64,000 nt of DNA. It comes from Nitrospirota bacterium. GTDB lineage: Bacteria > Nitrospirota > Nitrospiria > Nitrospirales > Nitrospiraceae. Position numbers and translations under genes: made by a program. Positions 4,065-52,302 of this stretch are shown here, in pieces. How positions within the stretch are numbered: the first letter of the stretch is position 1; each line of letters opens with the position of its first letter. The notes under the pieces are model-generated. The model was not told the origin of the DNA. It searched no databases and saw nothing but the letters and a program-made list of their open reading frames with translations. The stretch covers positions 124,001 through 188,000 of the forward strand of contig SCVN01000015.1 in the NCBI GenBank assembly GCA_004296885.1, read 5' to 3'.

Positions 4065-4748
4065 TTAAGAACGGAACAATCGCGACGCAAGGCGACTGTG
4101 CCTCATGGCATGGATGTCCTGTACCGGTGTCCAGGCGGTCATGGTCGCGTCAACGACGGCGCGACGGCTCAGACGGCTGATCATCGGAGCCCAGGCGGTC
4201 AGCAACCGCTGGCCTTCGCGTTGGCCGATCGGAAGCAGCTTGAGCGACGCGGACACGAACCCGACCGCCTGCTGGTACAGGAACGCCGTCACCGTCTGCT
4301 CCCTCGTCCATCCTGTTTCGCCCAACACCAACCCAAGCGCGACCGCCAGGTGTCCGGGCGCGCGACCGGCCTCAACTTCCCGGAGATACGTTCGAATGAC
4401 CGGAGACGCGCCGTCTTCCACCACCGCTCCCCTGAGCACTTGGCGTCCCATCTGCCGGCTGGCAATCCGACTTTCCCTCCCGGTCATCATCGCGTCCAAT
4501 GCCTGATCGGCCTCCCACGCCCCTTGTCCCTTGCCTCTTGCCCCTTGCCACGCCTTCGCAACCGCGACCGCTTCGCGGGTCCCCATCCCAGTGGTAAAAA
4601 GTTCCTCAACATAGCGCGAAAGGCCTTCGGAATCCTTCACCGCCCCGCCTTGCACCGCCGCCTCCAGGCCTGACGAGTAGGCAAACCCGCCGGCCGGGAA
4701 AAAACTATCCACGAACCGGATGCCGCGCAGGAGTGAAAGGGTGTTCAT
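4065..4748 (-). CDS. ureF: urease accessory protein UreF
   Basis: UreF bridges UreG and UreD in the urease activation complex. The conserved N-terminal segment [19 protein letters not shown] sits right after the chosen ATG at 4748, giving 227 aa. The frame stays open upstream to a TTG at 4856, but those extra codons are encoded by an intergenic palindromic repeat, so I do not count them as protein. No clear Shine-Dalgarno sequence precedes 4748. Translation may rely on coupling or be weak, since the repeat occupies the usual position. The gene lies between ureC and ureG on the same strand. Confidence 0.93.
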
Positions 4749-4881: not shown

Positions 4882-6606
4882 TCAAAAGAGGAAGTAACGT
4901 TGTGCCATCGGAAGCAATGCCAGCGGCTCGCAGGACAGCTTCTGCCCGTCGGCACGAACCACGTAGGTCTCCGGGTCCACTTCGATCCTGGGCAGCGCGT
5001 CGTTCAATTTCAGATCGCGCTTGCCGATTCCTCGGCATTTCTTGATGACGGCCAGCCGTTTCTGGAGGCCCAAGGTCTTGGGCACTTCCCGGTCCAACGC
5101 CGCCTGCGACATGAACGTCAGGCTGGTGCTGTACAGCGCCCGCCCAAAGCTCCCGAACATGGGCCTGGTGAGCACCGGCTGCGGCGTCGGGATCGAGGCA
5201 TTGGGGTCGCCCATCGCCGCGGACATGGGGAATCCGCCCTTCACCACGATCTCCGGCTTGACCCCGAAGAAGGCCGGTTTCCAGAGGACCAGATCGGCTA
5301 GCTTGCCCACTTCGACCGAGCCGACTTCGTGGGCGACGCCATGGGTAATCGCAGGATTGATCGTATATTTGGCCACATACCGCCTGGCGCGAAAATTATC
5401 GTGCGTGACGCCGGCCCCTTCGCCTGGGCCCTTGAGGTGCCCGCGTTGCAGCTTCATCTTGTGTGCCGTCTGCCAGGTGCGGATGATCACCTCTCCGACC
5501 CGCCCCATCGCCTGCGAATCAGACGACATGATGCTGATGGCGCCCATGTCGTGCAGGATGTCCTCGGCGGCGATCGTCTCCCGCCGGATGCGGGACTCGG
5601 CAAAGGCGATGTCTTCCGGCACACGGGGGTGGAGATGGTGGCAGACCATGAGCATGTCCAGGTGCTCGTCCATCGTGTTGACGGTAAAGGGCATGGTGGG
5701 GTTCGTGGACGAGGGCAGCACGTTCGGTTCGCCGCAAACCTTGATGATGTCCGGCGCGTGGCCGCCGCCCGCCCCCTCCGTGTGGAACGAGTGGATCGTC
5801 CGGCCGGCGAAGGCCTTGATCGTATCCTCGACGAACCCGGCTTCGTTCAGCGTGTCCGTGTGAATCGCCACTTGCACGTCATACTGCTCGGCCACGTCCA
5901 GACAGGTGGAGATGGCCGCGGGCGTCGTCCCCCAATCCTCGTGGAGCTTGAGTCCGATCGCGCCTGCCTCGATCTGTTCGTTGAGCCCTTCGGGAAGCGA
6001 CGAGTTCCCCTTGCCCAGAAATCCCAGGTTGATGGGGAATCCGTCGGCCGCCTCCAGCATCCGGTGGAGGTTCCAGGCGCCTGGCGTGCAAGTCGTGGCG
6101 TTCGTCCCCGTGGCCGGCCCGGTCCCTCCGCCAATCAGCGACGTGAGGCCGTTGGCCAGCCCTTCCATGATGATCTGCGGACAGATGAAATGGATGTGGG
6201 TATCCATGCCACCGGCCGTCACGATCTTGCCTTCGGCCGAAAGGACTTCCGTGGCGGCGCCGACTTCCATCCCCGGCGTCACTCCATCCATCAAGTCCGG
6301 ATTGCCCGCCTTGCCGATGGCGGAAATGCGCCCGTGCTTGATGCCAATGTCCGCCTTCACGATGCCCCAATGGTCCAGGATCACCGCGTTCGTGATCACG
6401 AGGTCCAACGCGCCGGCGGCGCGGGTGGCCGCAGGTGATTGCCCCATCCCGTCCCGAATGACTTTACCGCCCCCGAACTTGGCCTCTTCGCCAGGTGTCG
6501 TGAGATCCTTCTCGATTTCGACGATCAGCTCCGTGTCGGCCAGGCGAATCCGGTCCCCGGCGGTCGGCCCGTAGAGGTCTGCATATTGGCGGCGAGGAAT
6601 CTTCAT
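4882..6606 (-). CDS. ureC: urease subunit alpha
   Basis: This is the catalytic subunit of nickel urease, which hydrolyses urea to ammonia and carbamate/CO2 in the cytoplasm. At 574 aa it has the standard length. Visible signatures are [20 protein letters not shown] at the start, the metal-binding THIHFICPQ, the carbamylated lysine in [23 protein letters not shown], the substrate/flap segment VCHHLHP and the C-terminal MAQRYFLF. It overlaps ureB by 4 nt, which implies translational coupling. In a nitrifier the released ammonia can supply nitrogen, or energy in comammox strains. Identification is certain. Confidence 0.99.
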
Positions 6607-43122: not shown

Positions 43123-43815
43123 ATGGCTGACTCAGTCTCCCCGTCACCATCTCGCCAGGCCCTTTACTACCCGTTTCACCTGTGCCACGAGCGGACGCTC
43201 ACGCGCCTCCTGGATACATACGCCTCCGTCCATTTCAGGGACTACATGGCCTTGCAACTGACGCAGTTCAGCGGCACCACCGCCTACGCAGACCGGATGG
43301 GCGGCTATCACGAAGCCCTGTTCAAGGCGGGCCGCATCGTCCAGGGGTATAACGTCAGCGGCCCGCTCAATGAAGAAACGATCGCCGCGGTGAACCGGGA
43401 TCTGGCCGACCCGGCCTGGCGAGCGGAGTTCCATCGAGCCTTGCGGGAAGACCGGCGTTTTCAGCGGGGACTCTTCGACCTGTCCCACGGGATGCGGATC
43501 GGGAATCAACTGGTGCCCGGCCCGGCCGTCCTGCTCAGGCTCATCGAAGCAGAGCGGGTCGCGCACCCCTGGACATTCGCGGAGCTGCAGCGGTCGAGCG
43601 GATCGTCGTCGTCATTGGAGGACAGCTACGGCTACGAGTACGGGCTGGCCCTGGTCAAAACGTCCGCCGCGCTCGCCTACACGATCCGCCTCGCTCGCCA
43701 ACACGGGCTGGAGGCGGTGACCGACTCGGAATCTCACTTTCGCTTATTAACTCGGACCTGCGACAGGGACGGAATTGCACTGCCCAACCAGTGGCTCCCC
43801 AGAGAAGGCTACTGA
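43123..43815 (+). CDS. hypothetical protein
   Basis: This 230-aa soluble protein is not recognised. It is helical with [39 protein letters not shown] near the start and [33 protein letters not shown] near the end. The first half resembles nothing I can name. It is divergent from the cation antiporter with about 60 bp between starts, and the ClpS-like gene follows 52 bp later. Confidence 0.75.
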
Positions 43816-43867
43816 GAAGAGGACCGGGCTTGGCAGGCCGGCAGGCTGCTTGTTAGAATATTCGGCA

Positions 43868-44164
43868 ATGGCTGAGTCTCCAGGCACAGTTGCCGTTCCC
43901 GAGACCATCGAGGAAGAACACACAGGCGTCGGCGATGGGCTGGAAGCCCGTGTGATCGTCTACAACTGCAACTGCCACACCTATCAACAAGTCATTGCCC
44001 TCTTTTGCGAAGTCATTCCCGGCATGACCCCCGCAAAAGCATTCGAGCTCGCCTGGCGCATCGACCATGAAGGCAGCGCTACGGTCTATCAAGGTGAGTG
44101 GAAGACGGCCGAAGGCATCGCGAAGTTTCTGGCCGGCGGTGGGCTACGGGTCGCGCTCCAATAA
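43868..44164 (+). CDS. ClpS-like protein with altered N-degron pocket
   Basis: The 98-aa protein has an acidic N-terminal tail and a domain matching ClpS: ARVIVYNCNCHTYQQVIALFCEVIPGMTPAKAFELAWRIDHEGSATVYQGEW. ClpS delivers N-degron substrates to ClpAP. In the typical pocket Asn-Asp-Asp is followed by Thr, and a His lies 30 residues later. Here the Asn and the distal His (IDHEG) are kept, but the first Asp is replaced by Cys and the motif reads NCNCHT. Substrate specificity may therefore differ. Metal binding by the Cys pair is a guess. Confidence 0.75.
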   Translation: MAESPGTVAVPETIEEEHTGVGDGLEARVIVYNCNCHTYQQVIALFCEVIPGMTPAKAFELAWRIDHEGSATVYQGEWKTAEGIAKFLAGGGLRVALQ

Positions 44165-44171
44165 CAAGAAA

Positions 44172-44198
44172 GGGGCAGGCGATGCTCTCGCCTACCCC
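44172..44198. terminator. stem-loop between convergent genes
   Basis: GGGGCAGGCGA (44172-44182) and TCGCCTACCCC (44188-44198) form an 11-bp stem with one mismatch and a TGCTC loop, between the ClpS-like gene and the basic-protein gene. The following sequence is C-rich rather than T-rich. Confidence 0.5.
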
Positions 44199-44230
44199 TC
44201 CCGTTCGTCAATATTGGTGCGTTAGGACGG

Positions 44231-44548
44231 TTACCGGTGCGAAACTTTCCGGCGAGGCCGTGCTTTGCTGGTGGCAGCCCGCTGAGTGGATCGCGCCGAC
44301 CGTTGGGTGACCTTCTTCCGAACGGAGGCCTTCGGCTTCGCATGGCTCTTCCCGTCCTTCTGATGCGCGGTGGGCCAGGCCGGAATCCGGCTGGGCTTGC
44401 TCAGAAGTTCGCCGCTATACACCCGAACCTGGTACAGTTCGAAAAGCTTGGTGATCGCCTTCGGATCTCCCTTGCGGGCCGAGTTCAAGAGTCGGCGCCG
44501 CTGATTCAATTCTTCTTCTTCAGTGTGGGACGCTGCTCGTCGTTCCAT
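44231..44548 (-). CDS. small basic hypothetical protein
   Basis: The 105-aa protein has a helical N-terminal part (EEEELNQRRRLLNSARKGDPKAITKLFELYQVRVY) and a long Lys/Arg/Ser-rich disordered C-terminus (KASVRKKVTQRSARSTQRAA). Such a tail suggests nucleic-acid binding, but I do not recognise the family. AGGGGGG lies just upstream of the ATG at 44548. The N-terminal helix resembles the kind of start seen in sigma-factor-like helices, which is too weak to name. Confidence 0.7.
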   Translation of the reverse strand: MERRAASHTEEEELNQRRRLLNSARKGDPKAITKLFELYQVRVYSGELLSKPSRIPAWPTAHQKDGKSHAKPKASVRKKVTQRSARSTQRAATSKARPRRKVSHR

Positions 44549-44626
44549 ATCCCCCCTGACCTTTCTCCAGCCCACTCCTTTGGGTTGGACTTCGTAATGC
44601 TGAGATAGAATGGCAGAATATATACT

Positions 44627-44690
44627 AAGAGCCCTCATTTTTCCAGCAAAATGGGCATTTTTACTGCACAAGGCCTTAAATGGGGCTCTT
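44627..44690. repeat. inverted repeat in divergent spacer
   Basis: AAGAGCCCTCATTT (44627-44640) and AAATGGGGCTCTT (44678-44690) are complementary apart from one inserted base. They lie upstream of the basic-protein gene, about 80-140 bp before its start. The rest of the 318-bp spacer (44549-44866) holds the promoter listed next and no gene. Confidence 0.55.
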
Positions 44691-44781
44691 CAAACCTGTT
44701 GACAGTGAACGCAAGTTATTGATATTGCAACAATATGTTTGATTGCGGTGTTCCGCATACAATCGAAGCCGCGACTGTAGG

Positions 44782-44815
44782 TTGTCCCAGGCGAAAACCG
44801 GCGATATAATCGCCT
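44782..44815 (+). promoter_or_regulatory. sigma70 promoter with palindrome over the -10
   Basis: TTGTCC (44782-44787) and TATAAT (44805-44810) are 17 bp apart. The -10 lies inside GGCGAT-ATA-ATCGCC (44801-44815), a perfect 6-bp palindrome that could be an operator. Confidence 0.65.
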
Positions 44816-44866
44816 GCCCTTTCATGCGCACAAGATAACGCCCCATGACAAAAAGGAGCCTAACCG

Positions 44867-45541
44867 ATGGAAATGTATAAGCGAGAAGAAGGAAAGACCG
44901 ACGTCCAGGACGACCCCAAAGCCCGCGCCCTCTTAAAAGGGGCCTTCGAAAAGACCTCCCGCTGGCAACCGGACTTCAAAGGGTTCACCGCCGACCTGAC
45001 CGTGAACGTGAACGGCAAGGAAATCCGGGGCAGCGTCACTGTGAAAGGACCGCGCGACGTCAGCGTCAGTCTGCCAGACCCGGAAGTCCAGAAGTGGGCG
45101 GAAGGCCAGATCGGCATGATCGCCGTCCACCGAGCCCCACGCAAATTCGAGGAGGCGGACGGCAAGTACTCTCTGACTTTGGGAGAAGATCGCGACCATC
45201 CGCTCGGCCCCAAGCTGACCATCCATGGGGACGGGATGCACTCGTACTACCGGGTCAAGGGCGACCGGATCACCCAGATCAACCGCAAGATGCCGCACAC
45301 GGCCTTCACGATCAACGTGGAGGACAGCGCCCTGACCAAGGACAACAAGTTCCTCACCACCCGCTACACGGTCTATTACTACAACCCGCAGGACAGCAAG
45401 CTCACCAACGTGGAGAGCTTCATTGACACCCACACCCGCATCGGCTCGTCGGACTTGCCGGCCGGCCGACAAATTATCACCTACGAGAACGGAGAGGTGG
45501 CTGCCAGGTCTCTTACATTTAAAAACCACAAGATGCTGTGA
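44867..45541 (+). CDS. DUF3386 family protein
   Basis: The 224-aa protein matches DUF3386, known mainly from cyanobacteria and some nitrifiers: AFEKTSRWQPDFKGFTADLTVNVNGKEIRGSVTVKGPRDV near the start, HRAPRKFEEADGKYSLTLG, SYYRVKGDRITQINRKMPHTAFTINVEDS and an end of ENGEVAARSLTFKNHKML. Function is unknown. It has no signal peptide. It starts the three-gene unit DUF3386-DUF5069-haem-binding protein, with gaps of 2 bp each. Confidence 0.85.
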   Translation: MEMYKREEGKTDVQDDPKARALLKGAFEKTSRWQPDFKGFTADLTVNVNGKEIRGSVTVKGPRDVSVSLPDPEVQKWAEGQIGMIAVHRAPRKFEEADGKYSLTLGEDRDHPLGPKLTIHGDGMHSYYRVKGDRITQINRKMPHTAFTINVEDSALTKDNKFLTTRYTVYYYNPQDSKLTNVESFIDTHTRIGSSDLPAGRQIITYENGEVAARSLTFKNHKML

Positions 45542-45543
45542 GC

Positions 45544-45987
45544 ATGGATCTTCGCAAGCAGTTCCCACGCAGCCCCAAAGACAAGCTGGTCGGCTATGTG
45601 CACTTAGCCCGGATGATCGACAAGTGCCGGGCGACATTGGCCAGCACGCAGGGCGAGTACAAATACCCCTGCCCGATGGACCAACGGCTTTTGGATTTTG
45701 CCGGCATCACAGCGGAGCAGTTCACAGAAGCGGCCCGCGGCATGACGGACCCAGCCCTGGCCGAGTGGTTCAAGAAGAGCGCCACATCGCACAGTCCCGC
45801 CGAAATTGAGCAATGGAACGCACGGTTCCTGACCTGGGAGCCGGACACAGAAGAAAAGCGGGTCTACTTCAAAAAACTGCGCGATGCGGTGGACCCAAGC
45901 AGGCCCGACATCACCGCCTGGGCCGACCTGCTGGACTTGGATGAAAAACGACCTGTGCCGAAACGAACGGCGAACGTGAGGGGATAA
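45544..45987 (+). CDS. DUF5069 family protein
   Basis: The 147-aa soluble protein fits DUF5069: MDLRKQFPRSPKDKLVGYVHLARMIDKCRAT at the start, then YKYPCPMDQRLLDFAGITAEQF and ALAEWFKKSATSHSPAEIEQWN. Function is unknown. The ATG at 45544 lies 2 bp after the DUF3386 stop. A GTG at 45538 is in frame but overlaps that stop. It lies in the same unit as the GlcG/HbpS-type gene. Confidence 0.87.
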   Translation: MDLRKQFPRSPKDKLVGYVHLARMIDKCRATLASTQGEYKYPCPMDQRLLDFAGITAEQFTEAARGMTDPALAEWFKKSATSHSPAEIEQWNARFLTWEPDTEEKRVYFKKLRDAVDPSRPDITAWADLLDLDEKRPVPKRTANVRG

Positions 45988-45989
45988 GA

Positions 45990-46508
45990 ATGGAACTCGT
46001 GAAATGGATGGGTCTGCTGACTCTGGCCGTGATGATCAACGGGAACGTCCTCGCGGTCGCCGAAGACCTGCCCCGCGAAGCGGTCCTGCCTCTGGCCCTG
46101 GCCAACAAGGCCGCGGCGGCTGCGGTCGAGAAGTGCAAGCAGGACGGTTACAAAGTGAGCACCTCCGTCGTGGACAAGGCGGGCGTGCTGAGGGCCTTCC
46201 AACGGGGCGACGGAGCCGGACCACACACGGTGGATAGCAGCAGAAAGAAGGCCTACACGGCCGCGAGCCTGGGCAGGACCACGAGCGAACTGGGTGAACT
46301 CGTCGTCAAGATGCCGCACCTGCAAGCCATAGGAAAGATGAACGAGAGCATCATCATCCTGGGTGGTGGGCTCCCGATTCAGTTCGGCAATGAAGTCGTC
46401 GGCGGGATCGGCGTCGGCGGCGCCCCAGGCACCCAGCTCGACGACGCCTGCGCCCAAGCGGGTCTGGATGCGATTGGGGCGGTATCGAAAGTAGCTGGAA
46501 CGAAATAG
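45990..46508 (+). CDS. GlcG/HbpS family haem-binding-like exported protein
   Basis: The 172-aa protein has a signal peptide (MGLLTLAVMINGNVLA) and the GlcG/HbpS fold: LALANKAAAAAVEKCKQDGYKVSTSVVDKAGVLRAFQRGDGAG, KKAYTAASLGRTTSELG, LPIQFGNEVVGGIGVGGAPGTQLDDACAQAGL. Family members bind haem or act in redox sensing outside the cell. GGGGATAAGA precedes the ATG. It follows DUF5069 by 2 bp. The GC-rich block ends here, and an AT-richer unit begins 10 bp later. Confidence 0.87.
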   Translation: MELVKWMGLLTLAVMINGNVLAVAEDLPREAVLPLALANKAAAAAVEKCKQDGYKVSTSVVDKAGVLRAFQRGDGAGPHTVDSSRKKAYTAASLGRTTSELGELVVKMPHLQAIGKMNESIIILGGGLPIQFGNEVVGGIGVGGAPGTQLDDACAQAGLDAIGAVSKVAGTK

Positions 46509-46518
46509 GCGACTCTGC

Positions 46519-47241
46519 GTGAGTTCATATACAGAGCGATACGTGGCCTTTCTTGATGTTTTGGGCTTCCGTGATTTAATTCACCAGTCTGTCGGTCAGA
46601 ATGCACCAGTCACCGTGGATCAGATCTGCTCCATATTAGACATCCCGCCGCCAATTGGCGAAGACAAGATGATCCTTGGACGTATCGGAGATATATCAAG
46701 GTCTGGCCATCGATTGACCGCTTTTTCAGATAGTATTGTCCTCACGACAGATCCCACCGAACAGGGGCTAATGCACTTGCTCCATCATGCGGCAAAGATC
46801 GGCTTTAACTTGGCTCGCCTCAACGCTCTATATCGAGGGGGTGTAGTGCGAGGGCTCGTTTACCATGACGACCAACAAGTTTTCGGTCCAGCAGTGGTCA
46901 CTGCGCATGACATAGAGAAACATGGAAAATGGCCACGTGTTGTTCTGAGCGAGGAAGTCATACGAGCAGGCCGCTCGGCCGAAGAACCTGTCAGGACCGT
47001 GTTTAGCCGTCTTACCCGAGTTGACGATGATGGGAAAGTATTTGTTCACTATTTGAGAGTTCTTCGCATGGTTGCAGATATGAGTGGGCCCCTCCCCGCT
47101 GATATGCGCACCATTCATGAAGGAATTACTTCGTTCATAATGAACGAACTTTACCGACTTAAAGATAGGCCAAATGATAGGGAAAAGGTCGAGTGGTTCC
47201 GATCCTACTTCCATTGGGCTATAAATGCGCCTACGCCTTAG
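46519..47241 (+). CDS. class III nucleotidyl-cyclase-like protein (stand-alone domain)
   Basis: The 240-aa protein shows the class III cyclase pattern: AFLDVLGFRDLI with Asp13, TAFSDSIVL with Asp71 and RGGVVRGLVYHDDQQVFGPAVVTAHDIE near residues 106-133. The two aspartates are in the positions that bind the metal pair. No sensory or membrane domain is attached. It starts with GTG and has no ribosome site. The base composition is clearly more AT-rich than the genes before it. Stand-alone cyclases of this kind occur in some anti-phage systems, and others have unknown roles. The next gene is probably its partner. Fold assignment moderate, activity unproven. Confidence 0.65.
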   Translation: MSSYTERYVAFLDVLGFRDLIHQSVGQNAPVTVDQICSILDIPPPIGEDKMILGRIGDISRSGHRLTAFSDSIVLTTDPTEQGLMHLLHHAAKIGFNLARLNALYRGGVVRGLVYHDDQQVFGPAVVTAHDIEKHGKWPRVVLSEEVIRAGRSAEEPVRTVFSRLTRVDDDGKVFVHYLRVLRMVADMSGPLPADMRTIHEGITSFIMNELYRLKDRPNDREKVEWFRSYFHWAINAPTP

Positions 47242-47295
47242 ACAGATAGCTACTGGCTATCTTACTGACTAACACTAGCTTACACTTCGCATGGT

Positions 47296-48450
47296 ATGAG
47301 CGAACTAATTTACCATCCTAATCGTTACGCTTATTGCCGACCATTTATAAAAACTCTTCTCTCAATTTACAAACAAAACGCTGGAACGGGAACGCCGACA
47401 ATGGAAGCTCTCAATGCCATTGGCGATTCTTATATGCAGCTATACAACACTGCCGTCCAAAAGATGCCTTTTGAGCAACGCCCAATGAATACGGGCTTCA
47501 TGAGCAAAGAAGTATCGCTTTTTATGCACTTCGCAAGGTTCGAAGCAAATGGACGAAATATCTTTCACTTTCAACCCGCGCTTACCTCGCTTCTGCGGAA
47601 AACGGATGTGGACGATGTTCTGCTCCACACCATTAGGTTGCCATATGATTGTTTTCACATGACTTTTGAAAAGCAGCCAGACTTGAACCTTTGGGGACAA
47701 GGTTACTTCGTAGACGGGGCCTACATTTCAACAGTTTCAAGCAGGACAGCAAACATACTGCAAATTCTATTGACCACGCTTAGGACTGACCTCGATTATT
47801 CAACCAAGCCCAATTTTATATTGCATCCTGATCGTTACTATTATTTTTCTCTCGACCTTATTCCGAAAGAAACAAATGTAAAGACCGCGATTGAGAGATC
47901 TCTGAAAGAACATCAGCCCTTCAGCCCCAAGGATATTCCCGACACTACGGGCACTTATAGAGTTGAAGGTAAGACCATTTCGCTTATTGATCGAGGAAAA
48001 CTTTCGCAGATTGAGGTTGCTGAAGAGAATCGACTGGGATTCCCGATCTTCCTCGAAGCAATCAAACTCGTCATCAATGGACTTTGCTATCTGTCTTCAC
48101 AACATAAACAAGTCAACACTCGTTTTCCTGAAAGTGTACCAACGGCGCTCCTTCAGAAACTCCAAGCCACAAAAAGGCCTACTGAAATTTCAAGGACAAC
48201 TCGCAAGCTCGCCAGTATGGGATATACGAGAATTCACTTCTGTGGTGATGAAATACAACGGGAAGCCAACTGCCTGCCCACCGGGCAAGAACTTCCCACT
48301 CATTGGAGAAGGGGTCATTGGAGAAATCAAGCCTTTGGTGAGCGATTTTCCGAGCATAAACTTCTGTGGATTAAACCTACGATGGTTCGCAAGGACAAAG
48401 GTGAACCTTCACAAGGCCACATCTATGAGGTTGAAAGCGCCGACAATTGA
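47296..48450 (+). CDS. protein of unknown function with C-terminal WRRGHWRNQ motif
   Basis: The 384-aa soluble protein has no recognised N-terminal domain. Its C-terminus carries THWRRGHWRNQAFG followed by HKLLWIKPTMV (residues about 335-365). I recall this motif pair from the ends of many uncharacterised plasmid- and phage-linked proteins and, from memory, from the C-terminus of the anti-CRISPR AcrVA2; that link needs a search. The gene is AT-richer than the surroundings and lies 54 bp after the cyclase-like gene on the same strand, so the two look like one acquired unit. It ends 34 bp before a fragment of a TPM-gene tail. Confidence 0.7.
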   Translation: MSELIYHPNRYAYCRPFIKTLLSIYKQNAGTGTPTMEALNAIGDSYMQLYNTAVQKMPFEQRPMNTGFMSKEVSLFMHFARFEANGRNIFHFQPALTSLLRKTDVDDVLLHTIRLPYDCFHMTFEKQPDLNLWGQGYFVDGAYISTVSSRTANILQILLTTLRTDLDYSTKPNFILHPDRYYYFSLDLIPKETNVKTAIERSLKEHQPFSPKDIPDTTGTYRVEGKTISLIDRGKLSQIEVAEENRLGFPIFLEAIKLVINGLCYLSSQHKQVNTRFPESVPTALLQKLQATKRPTEISRTTRKLASMGYTRIHFCGDEIQREANCLPTGQELPTHWRRGHWRNQAFGERFSEHKLLWIKPTMVRKDKGEPSQGHIYEVESADN

Positions 48451-48483: not shown

Positions 48484-48540
48484 TCACTTCAGTCCTTCTC
48501 CGCCCATCCCCCCGCCGAAGCCGCATTGGCCGCTGTTACT
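48484..48540 (-). pseudogene. orphan 3' end of a TPM-domain gene
   Basis: On the minus strand these codons read SNSGQCGFGGGMGGEGLK then stop. The last twelve residues match exactly the C-terminus of the intact TPM protein encoded at 49477-50205, at DNA level 33 of 36 bases. The fragment lacks any start and is the remnant of a second copy. Together the two tails flank the RHH-PIN-RHH genes. Confidence 0.8.
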
Positions 48541-48551
48541 GAGGAGATCCC

Positions 48552-48770
48552 TCAGGACACGCCCATGAGAACATCTTCGTCCGTCAGGTAACCGTGCGCC
48601 CGAGCGAAAGGCATCGCTTTGCGCCGGAGCCGCGCAAGCAGAAGCAATGAAAGCTGACGCCGCAGGGCGTCCCGCACCACCTCGCTTCGCTTGCGTTTAG
48701 AGCGGCGACAGACCCGGCCCAGCATTTGCGCCAACTCATCATCCAGCCTGACAGTCACTATGCGTTTCAT
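48552..48770 (-). CDS. ribbon-helix-helix antitoxin/regulator
   Basis: The 72-aa protein has an N-terminal ribbon-helix-helix (KRIVTVRLDDELAQMLGRVCRRSKRKRSEVVRDALRRQL) and a short C-terminal segment ending in GYLTDEDVLMGVS, a pattern common in antitoxins. Its ATG overlaps the PIN stop by 4 nt, so it is translated with the toxin. RHH proteins bind operators as dimers, and the tail would bind the toxin. It is the third gene of the locus. Confidence 0.85.
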   Translation of the reverse strand: MKRIVTVRLDDELAQMLGRVCRRSKRKRSEVVRDALRRQLSLLLLARLRRKAMPFARAHGYLTDEDVLMGVS

Positions 48771-49159
48771 GTGGTGAGATATTCTCGCAATGAGATCAGC
48801 CGAATCCCTCGATATTCCTTCAGGCCCAGCATCGCCTTATCGCCTGTGACGATGCAATCAGCCTCGCCCGCTTCGGCGCACTCCAGGATTCGGTTGTCCG
48901 GATCATCTGCGAACACCTTGACCTTGTGTTCTGGCCTTACCAACTCGCCCATTTCAGTTAATGTGACGGCCAGGTGGCTTAACGTGTCTGGATCATGACT
49001 AAATTTCCCGGCCAAGGTCGAGAGAACTTCATCAAGGATCGCTTTGGAGATCAGGAGATCGTCTGCGCCATCGAGGATTCGGAGCAAGGCTTTTTCGGCT
49101 TGGCTGCCCGGGAAGATCAACGCCGAAATGTAAATGTTGCTGTCAAACACCACCCTCAC
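48767..49159 (-). CDS. PIN-domain toxin (putative ribonuclease)
   Basis: The 130-aa protein belongs to the PIN-family toxins of the COG1569 kind: VRVVFDSNIYISALIFPGSQAEKAL at the start, ISKAILDEVLSTL with a catalytic Glu, and ADDPDNRILECAEAGEADCIVTGDKAML with three catalytic Asp. All acidic residues expected for a metal-dependent RNase are present. The GTG start at 49159 overlaps the first antitoxin stop by 4 nt (GTGA). A longer frame upstream runs into that gene and is not used. Confidence 0.87.
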   Translation of the reverse strand: MRVVFDSNIYISALIFPGSQAEKALLRILDGADDLLISKAILDEVLSTLAGKFSHDPDTLSHLAVTLTEMGELVRPEHKVKVFADDPDNRILECAEAGEADCIVTGDKAMLGLKEYRGIRLISLREYLTT

Positions 49160-49395
49160 TTTTGAGCCAAGTACTTGCGAAGGTCTCGCTCCGTGAGGAT
49201 TCCCTTCTCTCTGGCTTTCTTTGTCCAATAGCCCTGCGCAACGAAAAAACTCTGTTTGAGCCGTTCGCGCTTGGCCGCCCGCAATGCCTCCTGGATCACT
49301 GCGCTAACCGTCTTGCCTTCTTCGCGCGCCAGTTCATCCAGCTCTTTCGATAGCGCGGGAGGAAGAGAAATGGTTTTCTTGACAGCCGTGCTCAT
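49156..49395 (-). CDS. ribbon-helix-helix antitoxin
   Basis: The 79-aa protein has an RHH domain (VKKTISLPPALSKELDELAREEGKTVSAVIQEALRAAKRERL) and a toxin-binding type tail (FFVAQGYWTKKAREKGILTERDLRKYLAQK). It is the first gene of the locus, with GGAGG 6 nt before the ATG at 49395. Both RHH proteins flank the PIN toxin and could act as alternative or joint antitoxins. Confidence 0.87.
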   Translation of the reverse strand: MSTAVKKTISLPPALSKELDELAREEGKTVSAVIQEALRAAKRERLKQSFFVAQGYWTKKAREKGILTERDLRKYLAQK

Positions 49396-49476
49396 GGTGC
49401 ACCTCCGGTATGAAAAAATCATACCACAGTCGCCCGCACCACACCAGTCAGGAGGACACAATCGAGCTTGCGCCCC

Positions 49477-50205
49477 CTACTTCAGCCCCTCTCCGCCCAT
49501 CCCCCCGCCGAACCCGCCGAAGTTGCCGCCGAAGCCGCCCTGACCGCTGCCCCAATATTCGCCGCGGCGCAGACGGCCGAAGGGATGGCGTAAGTCCGGA
49601 CGGCTGATCCACCAGAGAAAGGCCAGCGCGCCGAAGCCGGTGAAGAGGGTCAGAAAGATGCCCAAGCCCTTGAGATGCGAGCGGGGCGGATCGCCGACTC
49701 GGATCTCCTGCGCGGCTGAGGCCAGGGCCACGGAGGTTCGGTAGAGCCCTTCTTCAAACTGTCCATGCCGGAACGAGGGCTCGATGTACTGTGTGCTGAC
49801 TTGTTCCAAGATCTTCGGCGTGATCACGCCCAACAGGCTCCGCCCCATCGTAATGGCCGCCTGTCTCTCCTCCACTGCCGCCAACACCAACACCCCATGG
49901 CCCCTCTGGGCGGTTCCGATCCCCCACCGTTGATAGAGAGCCTCCGCATAGTCGTTCGCGGTTTTGTACGGCTTGATCGTCTTGACCGTGACGATCACCA
50001 TCTCGACGCCGGTCTTCCGTTCCAAATCCTGGCAGACGGACCGGATATTCGCCTTCCACTCGACCCCGATCACCCCCGCATGGTCTGTGACATAGCCCAG
50101 CGGTTCCGGCAGCGGTGTCTTCTCTCCCGGCAAGGCAAGCGCCGGACCGGCAGAAGCGGCCCATGCCAATATCACCACCCATGCTGTGACAAACGCCTTC
50201 ACCAT
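49477..50205 (-). CDS. TPM-domain membrane-anchored protein
   Basis: The 242-aa protein has a signal peptide ending at GPALA, a TPM domain (PLGYVTDHAGVIGVEWKANIRSVCQDLERKTGVEMVIVTVKTI, GVLVLAAVEERQAAITMGRSL), one membrane segment (about residues 181-198) and a Gly/Phe-rich tail (SGQGGFGGNFGGFGGGM). TPM domains occur in phosphatase-like envelope proteins; some act in photosystem repair in plants, which has no counterpart here. The 5' end overlaps the nucleotidyltransferase-like gene by 7 nt. Its 3' tail exists as a duplicate at 48484. Confidence 0.85.
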   Translation of the reverse strand: MVKAFVTAWVVILAWAASAGPALALPGEKTPLPEPLGYVTDHAGVIGVEWKANIRSVCQDLERKTGVEMVIVTVKTIKPYKTANDYAEALYQRWGIGTAQRGHGVLVLAAVEERQAAITMGRSLLGVITPKILEQVSTQYIEPSFRHGQFEEGLYRTSVALASAAQEIRVGDPPRSHLKGLGIFLTLFTGFGALAFLWWISRPDLRHPFGRLRRGEYWGSGQGGFGGNFGGFGGGMGGEGLK

Positions 50206-50969
50206 TTGCCTTCCGCTTTCAATTGTTCCACCCGTTGAATCACCCCTTCCAGCGAGGCGACATACCGGTCGAAGAGCCTTGGCACTTCCAGCGGCCCAGG
50301 CGTGCTCTGACCGCGCTTAAGGCTCAGCACTTCTTGAAATCCAGCCGGGTCTATGCCCAATTGGGCTTGGAGTTGATCGAAGAACCCCTCGCTCTGGGCC
50401 GGCACGGACAGGCCCTTGATCCGCAGGAGACCCCTCAGGCAGGGCAAGAGCGATGTCAGGGACAGGGGCAGGAGGATCAGGATGGCCTCCTGCTTGCCGC
50501 CGCCTTCGACGAATCGCTGCCGCAACCGGAGGAGATTGCCCCGGATTTCCTGCTTACATTGCAGACCAAGGTTGCGCTGATCCACGTGCAGCGAAGGAAA
50601 GGGATCGCGGCCGACGAGCAGCACATGCCGTTCCTTCATTTCCAGATATTCGAGCGGAAAGAGAGCCGCCGAGGCCTGTAACTCTTGCTGCGTCAAAAAC
50701 AGCGGCACGACGATGCGCTCCTTACCCCAGCGTTTATGAATCTTCGCATACTGTTCCAGCAATGCCGTGTCCTGCTTCGCGAGTATGATGAGAACATTGA
50801 GATTGGACCGGTCCGGCAGGAACTCTCCGCCCGCAGCGCTGCCATAGAGAATGATCGCTTCCAAGGCCTGGCCGAAGAGTTTCGTCACCTCCTCAAGATA
50901 AGACCGGAGCGTTTGCCGCACCTCGGCCGGCAGGTGCTTGGGGATACCTTCTGTTGAATCCTGACTCAT
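50199..50969 (-). CDS. nucleotidyltransferase-fold protein with altered catalytic motif
   Basis: The 256-aa protein has an N-terminal Polbeta-type nucleotidyltransferase domain: ILYGSAAGGEFLPDRSNLNVLIIL. The active-site GS motif is present, but the paired aspartates that normally follow (SDxD) are replaced by SNLN, so catalysis is doubtful. The rest is helical, including LRLRQRFVEGGGK and a coiled end. Such proteins often act as regulators or binders. It overlaps the TPM gene at its 3' end and follows the monooxygenase gene by 7 bp. Confidence 0.75.
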   Translation of the reverse strand: MSQDSTEGIPKHLPAEVRQTLRSYLEEVTKLFGQALEAIILYGSAAGGEFLPDRSNLNVLIILAKQDTALLEQYAKIHKRWGKERIVVPLFLTQQELQASAALFPLEYLEMKERHVLLVGRDPFPSLHVDQRNLGLQCKQEIRGNLLRLRQRFVEGGGKQEAILILLPLSLTSLLPCLRGLLRIKGLSVPAQSEGFFDQLQAQLGIDPAGFQEVLSLKRGQSTPGPLEVPRLFDRYVASLEGVIQRVEQLKAEGKW

Positions 50970-50976
50970 CTTCTAT

Positions 50977-52302
50977 CTACGCCCCCCTTACCGTTGCGTC
51001 CGCCGGCAGCTGATCCGCATGGGGATCGGGCAGGAACCCGGCAATCATCAACCGATCCAACAGTCCAAACGGCGGCTCGGATCGAAACCCGGCCGTTGTG
51101 GCCAGCACCCGATAGCTCAGCCGCTTGTTGCGCTCCATGCCCTTGAACACCCGGTCGCGCAAATAGGCCAGCAAGGGATTGCCCGTGTTCCAGAACAGGA
51201 CTTGCTCGTCCGCCAATTTCTGGAGCATGTCCACTTGCGGCCGACGGACCCGTTCGTACTCGGCCAAGGCCGAGGCCGACCAATCGTTGCGCTCCAACCA
51301 CCGGGGGATGAGATCAGCCAGGGCCATCGCATCCACCATCGCTTGCATCCGGCCCTGCGAGGCATGGGGATTGATCGCATGGGCCGCATCGCCGATCAGC
51401 ACGGCCCCATCGGCCACCCAAGTCTTGGCTTTCACCCGGCCTGTGGGCAGGTAGGCGGTCTGCTTCCAGTCCACCAGACTCTCGGCCATCGGCGCCAAAG
51501 TCGGATCAATGGCCAGCCATCGTTTTCGCAGCGCATCGAGTCCCGCGTCCTTGATCTGCTGCATGGACCCGGCCGGAATCATATAGAACAGATAGGCCTT
51601 GTCGCCTGCCGCCGGAAAGGCCCCGAGGATCGTCTTCTTCCCCACAAAATAGCGGGCCTCTTCCATGTCCTTGGGCCGCTCCAGGATGGCAATCAGATAG
51701 CCCTCCGGGTACATGTACAGCTTGGCTGCAATGCCCAGGGCTTCTCGCACGTGCGACCGAGCCCCGTCTGCTCCCACGACCAGCTTGGCCGAGACGGTCA
51801 TGGGCCGACCGTCACATTCCACCTCCACACCGACCACGCGGCTCCCCTCGCGCAGCAGCTTCTTAAATGTCGCTCCGTAGCGAAGGCTGCCTGGGGCCCG
51901 AGTCTCCAGTTCCCTGAGAATCGCATGGTGGGCCACGTTCGGCAATGTCACCAGCGCCCGATTGTAGGGAGGGGGCAACATTCCATAGTCAATCGTACAC
52001 AATCGTTCACACCCGCCCGCCCTGGGCGCGCCAAGACACGCCCCTTCCCGTGCGCCACCCACGCGGCAGAAGTGAAAATACCGCACCGGCCTCGTGGCAT
52101 CCGCCGGGAGCTTGTCGAGCAGCCCCAGGCGATCCAAAATCTGCTGCCCGTTGGGCTGGAGAATCTCCCCCCGCAGGCCTCCGGGTGGCCCAGGCGCCTG
52201 CTCCAGGACCAGCGCCTTGATCCCCTTCTGCGCCAGCGCGAGACCCAGCACGGCCCCGCCTCCGCCTGCGCCAATCACCACCACATCCGTCCGTTCTGTC
52301 AT
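50977..52302 (-). CDS. FAD-dependent monooxygenase (PF01494 family)
   Basis: The 441-aa flavoprotein has the Rossmann dinucleotide motif VVVIGAGGGGAVLGLALAQKG at the start, the DG motif region LVVGADGARSHVREALG and the GD motif VLIGDAAHAINPHASQGRMQAMVDAMALA. It resembles aromatic-ring or ubiquinone-type hydroxylases that use NAD(P)H and O2. The substrate is unknown. The ATG at 52302 lies 19 bp after the PLD gene stop. Starts further upstream would overlap that gene. Confidence 0.88.
   Translation of the reverse strand: MTERTDVVVIGAGGGGAVLGLALAQKGIKALVLEQAPGPPGGLRGEILQPNGQQILDRLGLLDKLPADATRPVRYFHFCRVGGAREGACLGAPRAGGCERLCTIDYGMLPPPYNRALVTLPNVAHHAILRELETRAPGSLRYGATFKKLLREGSRVVGVEVECDGRPMTVSAKLVVGADGARSHVREALGIAAKLYMYPEGYLIAILERPKDMEEARYFVGKKTILGAFPAAGDKAYLFYMIPAGSMQQIKDAGLDALRKRWLAIDPTLAPMAESLVDWKQTAYLPTGRVKAKTWVADGAVLIGDAAHAINPHASQGRMQAMVDAMALADLIPRWLERNDWSASALAEYERVRRPQVDMLQKLADEQVLFWNTGNPLLAYLRDRVFKGMERNKRLSYRVLATTAGFRSEPPFGLLDRLMIAGFLPDPHADQLPADATVRGA

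Follow-up and report, generated by a model that had tools for sequence, protein, structure and literature searches.

A homologue of AcrVA2 and FinQ next to a non-canonical class III cyclase-like protein: most likely independent mobile-element genes in an insertion hotspot of a Nitrospirota bacterium

Two adjacent genes of a Nitrospirota bacterium, encoding the proteins here called P0001 and P0002, are most likely independent accessory genes of mobile elements that were stranded in a chromosomal insertion hotspot. Profile comparisons relate P0002 to AcrVA2, an anti-CRISPR protein of phages, and to the plasmid protein FinQ, while P0001 is predicted to have the fold of class III nucleotidyl cyclases. 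The explanation that we favour, with moderate confidence, is that the two genes came to lie side by side by chance and that P0002 silences a competitor at the mRNA level.

Both open reading frames were reproduced at their exact positions, on the same strand and with a spacing of 54 bp (Table 1). The G+C content of the P0001 gene is 49.2% and that of the P0002 gene 44.4%, against 61.1% for the window, that is, the whole stretch of 64,000 nucleotides that was analysed; among stretches of the same size they belong to the lowest 2.2% and the lowest 0.4%, respectively. At third codon positions the values are 47% and 44%, compared with 75-81% in the flanking protein-coding genes on either side of the locus. 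The low G+C and shared orientation to which an earlier note on this DNA had drawn attention are thus confirmed, as is the RHH-PIN-RHH locus that it placed after the pair, which lies on the opposite strand. The neighbours of P0001 are HbpS-like, DUF5069, P0002 and RHH-PIN-RHH, and scans for promoters and terminators remained at chance level.

Table 1. Position of the two genes, their sequence features and the neighbouring elements in the window
Feature	Position	Strand	Remarks
P0001, stand-alone class III cyclase-like protein, 240 aa	46519-47241	+	GTG start
Metal Asp codons of P0001	D13 at 46555-46557; D71 at 46729-46731	+	Class III cyclase metal positions
K223 of P0001	47185-47187	+	Invariant in family
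P0002, AcrVA2/FinQ-superfamily protein, 384 aa	47296-48450	+	ATG start; profile-profile, PDB profile, VIA
HWRRGHWR signature of P0002	48301-48324	+	Aligned to RPHIRRGHW of AcrVA2 and FinQ
WIKPT of P0002	48367-48381	+	Opposite the W..P..VN end of AcrVA2/FinQ in the alignment
Boundary repeat, copy of the 3' end of gene 49477-50205	48484-48535		Right-hand limit of the acquired pair
Ribbon-helix-helix (RHH) protein, neighbour outside the pair	48552-48770	-	RHH_1 E 2.3e-5
PIN-domain toxin-like protein, neighbour	48767-49228	-	PIN_3 E 5.3e-17
Ribbon-helix-helix antitoxin-like protein, neighbour	49156-49461	-	RHH_1 E 1.4e-7; DNA 85% identical to G171

The set analysed included three further genomes of the genus, and the flanking genes were found in two of them, one of which has contigs that break off at the site. 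In G171, a sister genome, the left flank (43702-46482 of the window) is 86% identical and the right flank (49479-51716) 90% identical at the DNA level, but between the HbpS-like gene and gene 49477-50205 different small genes replace the pair: they encode two proteins of 188 aa and 112 aa, the latter membrane-like, an RHH protein whose gene is the counterpart marked in Table 1, and a further PIN-like/RHH pair. Since the flanks are conserved and the genes between them differ, the site is a chromosomal hotspot at which inserted genes are exchanged. The proposal that the pair had been acquired is borne out by its absence from the corresponding site of this sister genome and by its AT-richness.

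The right-hand limit of the pair is marked by a repeat of the 3' end of gene 49477-50205, which by reading of its sequence may be of the TPM type. Besides the copy listed in Table 1 the window contains one at 49479-49549, and the two are 92% identical over 39 nt and 88% over 24 nt. The core of the repeat occurs in only two places in the genome, and this genome-wide search ruled out that it belongs to a dispersed repeat. Diverged copies are found in the G171 locus (L197) at 4074-4108, 4449-4500 and 5262-5305, between its cargo genes, and no integrase was seen beside the repeat. In both the window and G171, the duplicated gene end lies at the edges of toxin-antitoxin-like modules, and this gives the impression that the end of this gene is a place of repeated integration of small modules.

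The two genes had been proposed to form a functional unit, a nucleotide-signalling system of defence or anti-defence in which the cyclase would make a signal and P0002 would respond to it. Their adjacency on one strand with short spacing, the AT-richness of both, the cyclase fold of P0001 with its metal aspartates and, on a plasmid of Agrobacterium, the location of one cyclase relative beside the defence gene dsr1 are in line with this proposal. However, when homologues of both were searched for, as the earlier note had recommended, the genes proved not to be conserved together, an outcome that the note itself had named as refuting the idea: among 132 AcrVA2-like and 44 cyclase loci only the place studied here, retrieved in three overlapping fetches, contains both. 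Among 395 genomes of the phylum the cyclase family is present in 41 and the P0002 family (at E 1e-6) in this one alone, so that none of the 40 other cyclase-bearing genomes has it; one further member of the taxonomic family, outside the 395, carries a broken relative of P0002 and no cyclase in the DNA examined. Neither family has a fixed neighbour. Moreover, the homologues of P0002 act on transcripts and are not known to be connected with cyclic nucleotides, neither a PycTIR nor a PycTM effector stands beside P0001, PADLOC returned no match to a Pycsar cyclase, and neither protein gave a convincing match in that defence library as a whole. P0001 and P0002 are best seen as cargo genes independent of each other; we consider a nucleotide-signalling system made up of the two unlikely, and its defence or anti-defence form extremely improbable.

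P0001 matches the Pfam model Guanylate_cyc below the cut-off (E 0.089), and over nearly its whole length it matches PHROG 23933 (E 1.1e-27), an uncharacterised phage family to which it belongs. A PADLOC match to Cas11e (E 0.002) was discarded as due to chance, as it involves only the C-terminal part and one of nine members. The AlphaFold model, built with 26 relatives from viral contigs and confident (pLDDT 86, pTM 0.84), supports the cyclase-like nature claimed in the earlier note: the best 31 Foldseek matches are all class III nucleotidyl cyclases, headed by Ma1120 (5d15, E 5.7e-4), and VIA aligns 137-165 residues with such cyclases at Z 10.8. Comparison with a profile of six canonical class III cyclases of the host gave a profile-profile value of 90% (E 1.4e-6); in this alignment D13 and D71 fall on the metal aspartates and the RGG...FGPAV...IE stretch on the distal motif, as had been read from the sequence, while V127 and D131 stand where the catalytic Asn and Arg are found. 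PycC, with which a structural comparison had been advised, does occur among the Foldseek matches (EaPycC 8jsf, rank 28, E 0.04) and shares with P0001 the fold and a stand-alone cyclase core. P0001 is, however, structurally no closer to PycC than to ordinary cyclases, and the 50 best VIA matches include no PycC chain.

The model thus assigns P0001 to the class III cyclase fold, in a non-canonical form. Like Ma1120, Rv1264 and soluble guanylate cyclase, it has the core fold, both metal aspartates, the R-G-G...G strand and the distal G-P-A...E motif; unlike class III cyclases, it lacks the canonical Asn and Arg, has T67 where a Lys stands four residues before the second Asp, and bears additional helices at its C-terminus, in which one Lys is invariant. 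In an alignment of 27 sequences (P0001 and 26 relatives from viral contigs) A10, F11, D13, L15, G16, F17, D71, G107 and K223 are invariant, and the transition-state Asn and Arg (the N...R of VNxAxRxE) are absent from P0001, both columns being variable across the family. From these results metal and nucleotide binding is likely, and P0001 would bind a nucleoside triphosphate through D13 and D71. The same pattern, with Asn and Arg replaced across the family while F11, D13, D71, G107 and K223 stay invariant, would also suit a cyclase fold that has lost its catalytic activity or been repurposed, for example a nucleotide sensor or a sponge for phage or host signals. Two considerations weigh against this: the preservation of both metal aspartates in 27 divergent proteins favours metal-dependent chemistry, and K223 might serve in catalysis instead. 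We consider a dead or repurposed P0001 quite conceivable, a little short of an even chance; it concerns this protein only and is compatible with two independent genes brought together by chance.

The family of P0001 is present in about 10% of the sampled genomes of the phylum and in viral contigs, and no Pfam or NCBIfam model recognises it; it is a cyclase fold of wide distribution that lacks the catalytic residues of the textbooks. Around its members only integrases, recombinases and phage genes recur, together with a ParA-type ATPase in three loci. In these viral contigs (L162, L172 and L174) the gene of a ParA/MinD-type ATPase lies just upstream of the cyclase-like gene, next to it or overlapping with it, and it is possible that this ATPase is a real partner in that subgroup. 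On the Agrobacterium plasmid mentioned above (L025, 1262-5846), the cyclase-like gene comes directly after dsr1, which encodes an anti-phage sirtuin.

For P0002, single-sequence searches of Pfam, NCBIfam, PADLOC and annotated phages returned nothing usable, and the best phmmer match in the PDB was an antibody chain (E 0.72); the C-terminus alone matched two uncharacterised phage families. The profile of the plasmid branch alone (A1) did not recover AcrVA2 from the PDB, whereas for profiles that included virus members AcrVA2 (7ci1) was the best of 177,635 PDB sequences (E 0.03 and 0.08), with its RPHIRRGHW...W..VN opposite the signature of P0002. Since AcrVA2 was found only by profiles with virus members, a profile-profile test was carried out. 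Relatives of AcrVA2 were fetched with the C-terminal part of AcrVA2 taken from the PDB alignment; they came from phages of Moraxella and Shewanella and from 542 plasmids, and several of the plasmid matches are annotated as FinQ. Against the profile of this group, hhalign gave 97.3% (E 2.3e-11) for the plasmid profile of P0002 over 251 columns, covering residues 71-369, and 98.2% (E 3.6e-14) for the P0002/virus profile over 231 columns, while an unrelated cyclase profile used as negative control gave 0.06%. These values show that the homology of P0002 with AcrVA2 and FinQ goes beyond the motif and takes in most of the protein, and the link to AcrVA2 that had been suggested tentatively in the earlier note is upheld as true homology, although only about 15% of the residues are identical in the profile alignment.

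The HWRRGHWR and WIKPT motifs reported for P0002 are both present (Table 1), the former invariant in the P0002/virus alignment, and they correspond to the C-terminal signature (H/P)H.RRGHW ... W..P..V of the superfamily. With AcrVA2 (7CI1/7CI2) P0002 shares the middle and C-terminal architecture IF.F...L..T...LP.....GA/GFW ... H.RRGHW ... W..P..V and the mobile-element setting; it differs in having HWRRGHWRNQ where AcrVA2 has PHIRRGHWHGYW, in its place in the tree and in a host without cas1. The structural comparison suggested for this protein gave a divided result: the AlphaFold model is weak (pLDDT 52.6, pTM 0.45) and found no match with Foldseek, but VIA-align placed AcrVA2 (7ci2) first (Z 6.2, 206 residues, most of both chains), a score that for a model of such low confidence is supportive only and would not count alone.

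FinQ is a fertility inhibitor of IncI plasmids, and it is homologous to AcrVA2: BLASTP aligns it with the AcrVA2 protein from a phage of Shewanella with 25% identity over 361 columns (E 3e-23). On an E. coli IncI plasmid (L184, 1164-2255) the open frame of FinQ has 363 aa; the annotation begins internally (1476-2255), and the N-terminal part upstream of the annotated start aligns with AcrVA2 too. The homology with AcrVA2 extends along the whole of FinQ, which therefore belongs to one superfamily with P0002. In a tree of these divergent sequences, which has long branches, AcrVA2 and FinQ form one clade (support 100/99), and P0002 is excluded from it and falls in a separate plasmid/virus branch. 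We found no paper that names both FinQ and AcrVA2; preprints lay outside the search, so a prior mention is possible.

A description from 1989 of the effect of FinQ on the F plasmid reportedly left the mechanism incomplete. FinQ, plasmid-borne like members of the P0002 family, targets the transcripts of a rival element: transcription of the F tra operon is terminated at multiple sites in a Rho-independent way (PMC8744291). AcrVA2 causes a translation-dependent loss of cas12a mRNA, and has been described as the first prokaryotic inhibitor using translation-coupled mRNA degradation, with the trigger of decay unknown (PMC13131331). Both proteins inhibit a rival genetic system through its transcripts, and this common property is the basis of the function proposed here for P0002: by analogy, it is probably a co-translational silencer acting on mRNA. 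P0002 would silence the gene of a competitor during its translation; the variable N-terminal and middle parts would read the target, which for AcrVA2 may be the nascent Cas12a peptide, and the conserved C-terminal domain with HWRRGHWR...WIKP would perform the common step, a contact with the ribosome, RNA or a decay factor.

A broader proposal is that AcrVA2, FinQ and the plasmid/virus branch form one superfamily that senses the nascent protein of a rival and destroys or aborts its mRNA. Since FinQ has been described as causing Rho-independent termination and not mRNA decay, we infer the shared mechanism only tentatively and doubt it somewhat more than we believe it. If true, the 'transcription termination' of FinQ would be the same translation-coupled mechanism as that of AcrVA2, and gene silencing would be the role of hundreds of HWRRGHWR proteins from phages and plasmids. 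The link of AcrVA2 to FinQ and to a wide family in plasmids and viruses opens the way to direct tests in standard laboratory strains, and it suggests that the active part common to these proteins is the conserved domain at the C-terminus.

As for the target, homology over most of AcrVA2 could suggest that P0002 is its orthologue and acts on Cas12a as well. P0002 is nevertheless outside the AcrVA2+FinQ clade and very distant in sequence, its relatives are on plasmids of several phyla, and cas1 was not found in the host genome by a search whose control was positive in 9 genomes, so that we judge an anti-Cas12a role quite improbable; for the same lack of cas1, a resident CRISPR system of the host is an unlikely target. 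A specific form of the silencing explanation would make P0002 a FinQ-like factor of fertility inhibition or plasmid competition that shuts down genes for transfer or replication on a rival plasmid, as its membership in the superfamily of FinQ and its plasmid-borne relatives, several of them near ParA/ParB, KorA, replication or mobilization genes, might indicate. Yet the family also occurs in many viral contigs, it has no conserved neighbour and the host has no known rival plasmid, and in this narrow form we consider the idea rather unlikely.

By tblastn, relatives of P0002 were found on 28 plasmids (20 covered to at least 80%, 10 typed as conjugative), from hosts of several phyla that include Pseudomonas, Denitratisoma, Methylocystis, Microscilla and Calothrix. 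In this branch no neighbour is common to more than two loci. The HWRRGHWR pattern searched for in DNA occurs in more than 110 viral contigs, near the protein end in nearly all, and these proteins constitute a large uncharacterised viral family; in the IMG/VR contigs L030-L149 they are mostly about 300-490 aa long, with a common C-terminal region, and very diverse elsewhere. Four plasmid relatives (L012 5536-7176, L013 5428-7158, L016 5407-7137 and L021 4515-6047) have an extra N-terminal part of ~150-190 aa with no Pfam match, and in L012 the gene comes after those of ParA, ParB and a KorA-like repressor. In two relatives (L011 1453-2511, on contig C200 of G155, and L015 5860-6963) a stop divides the gene into two reading frames; the former relative lies on a 4.4-kb contig, near a protein that resembles the mobilization protein NikA at a score below the cut-off.
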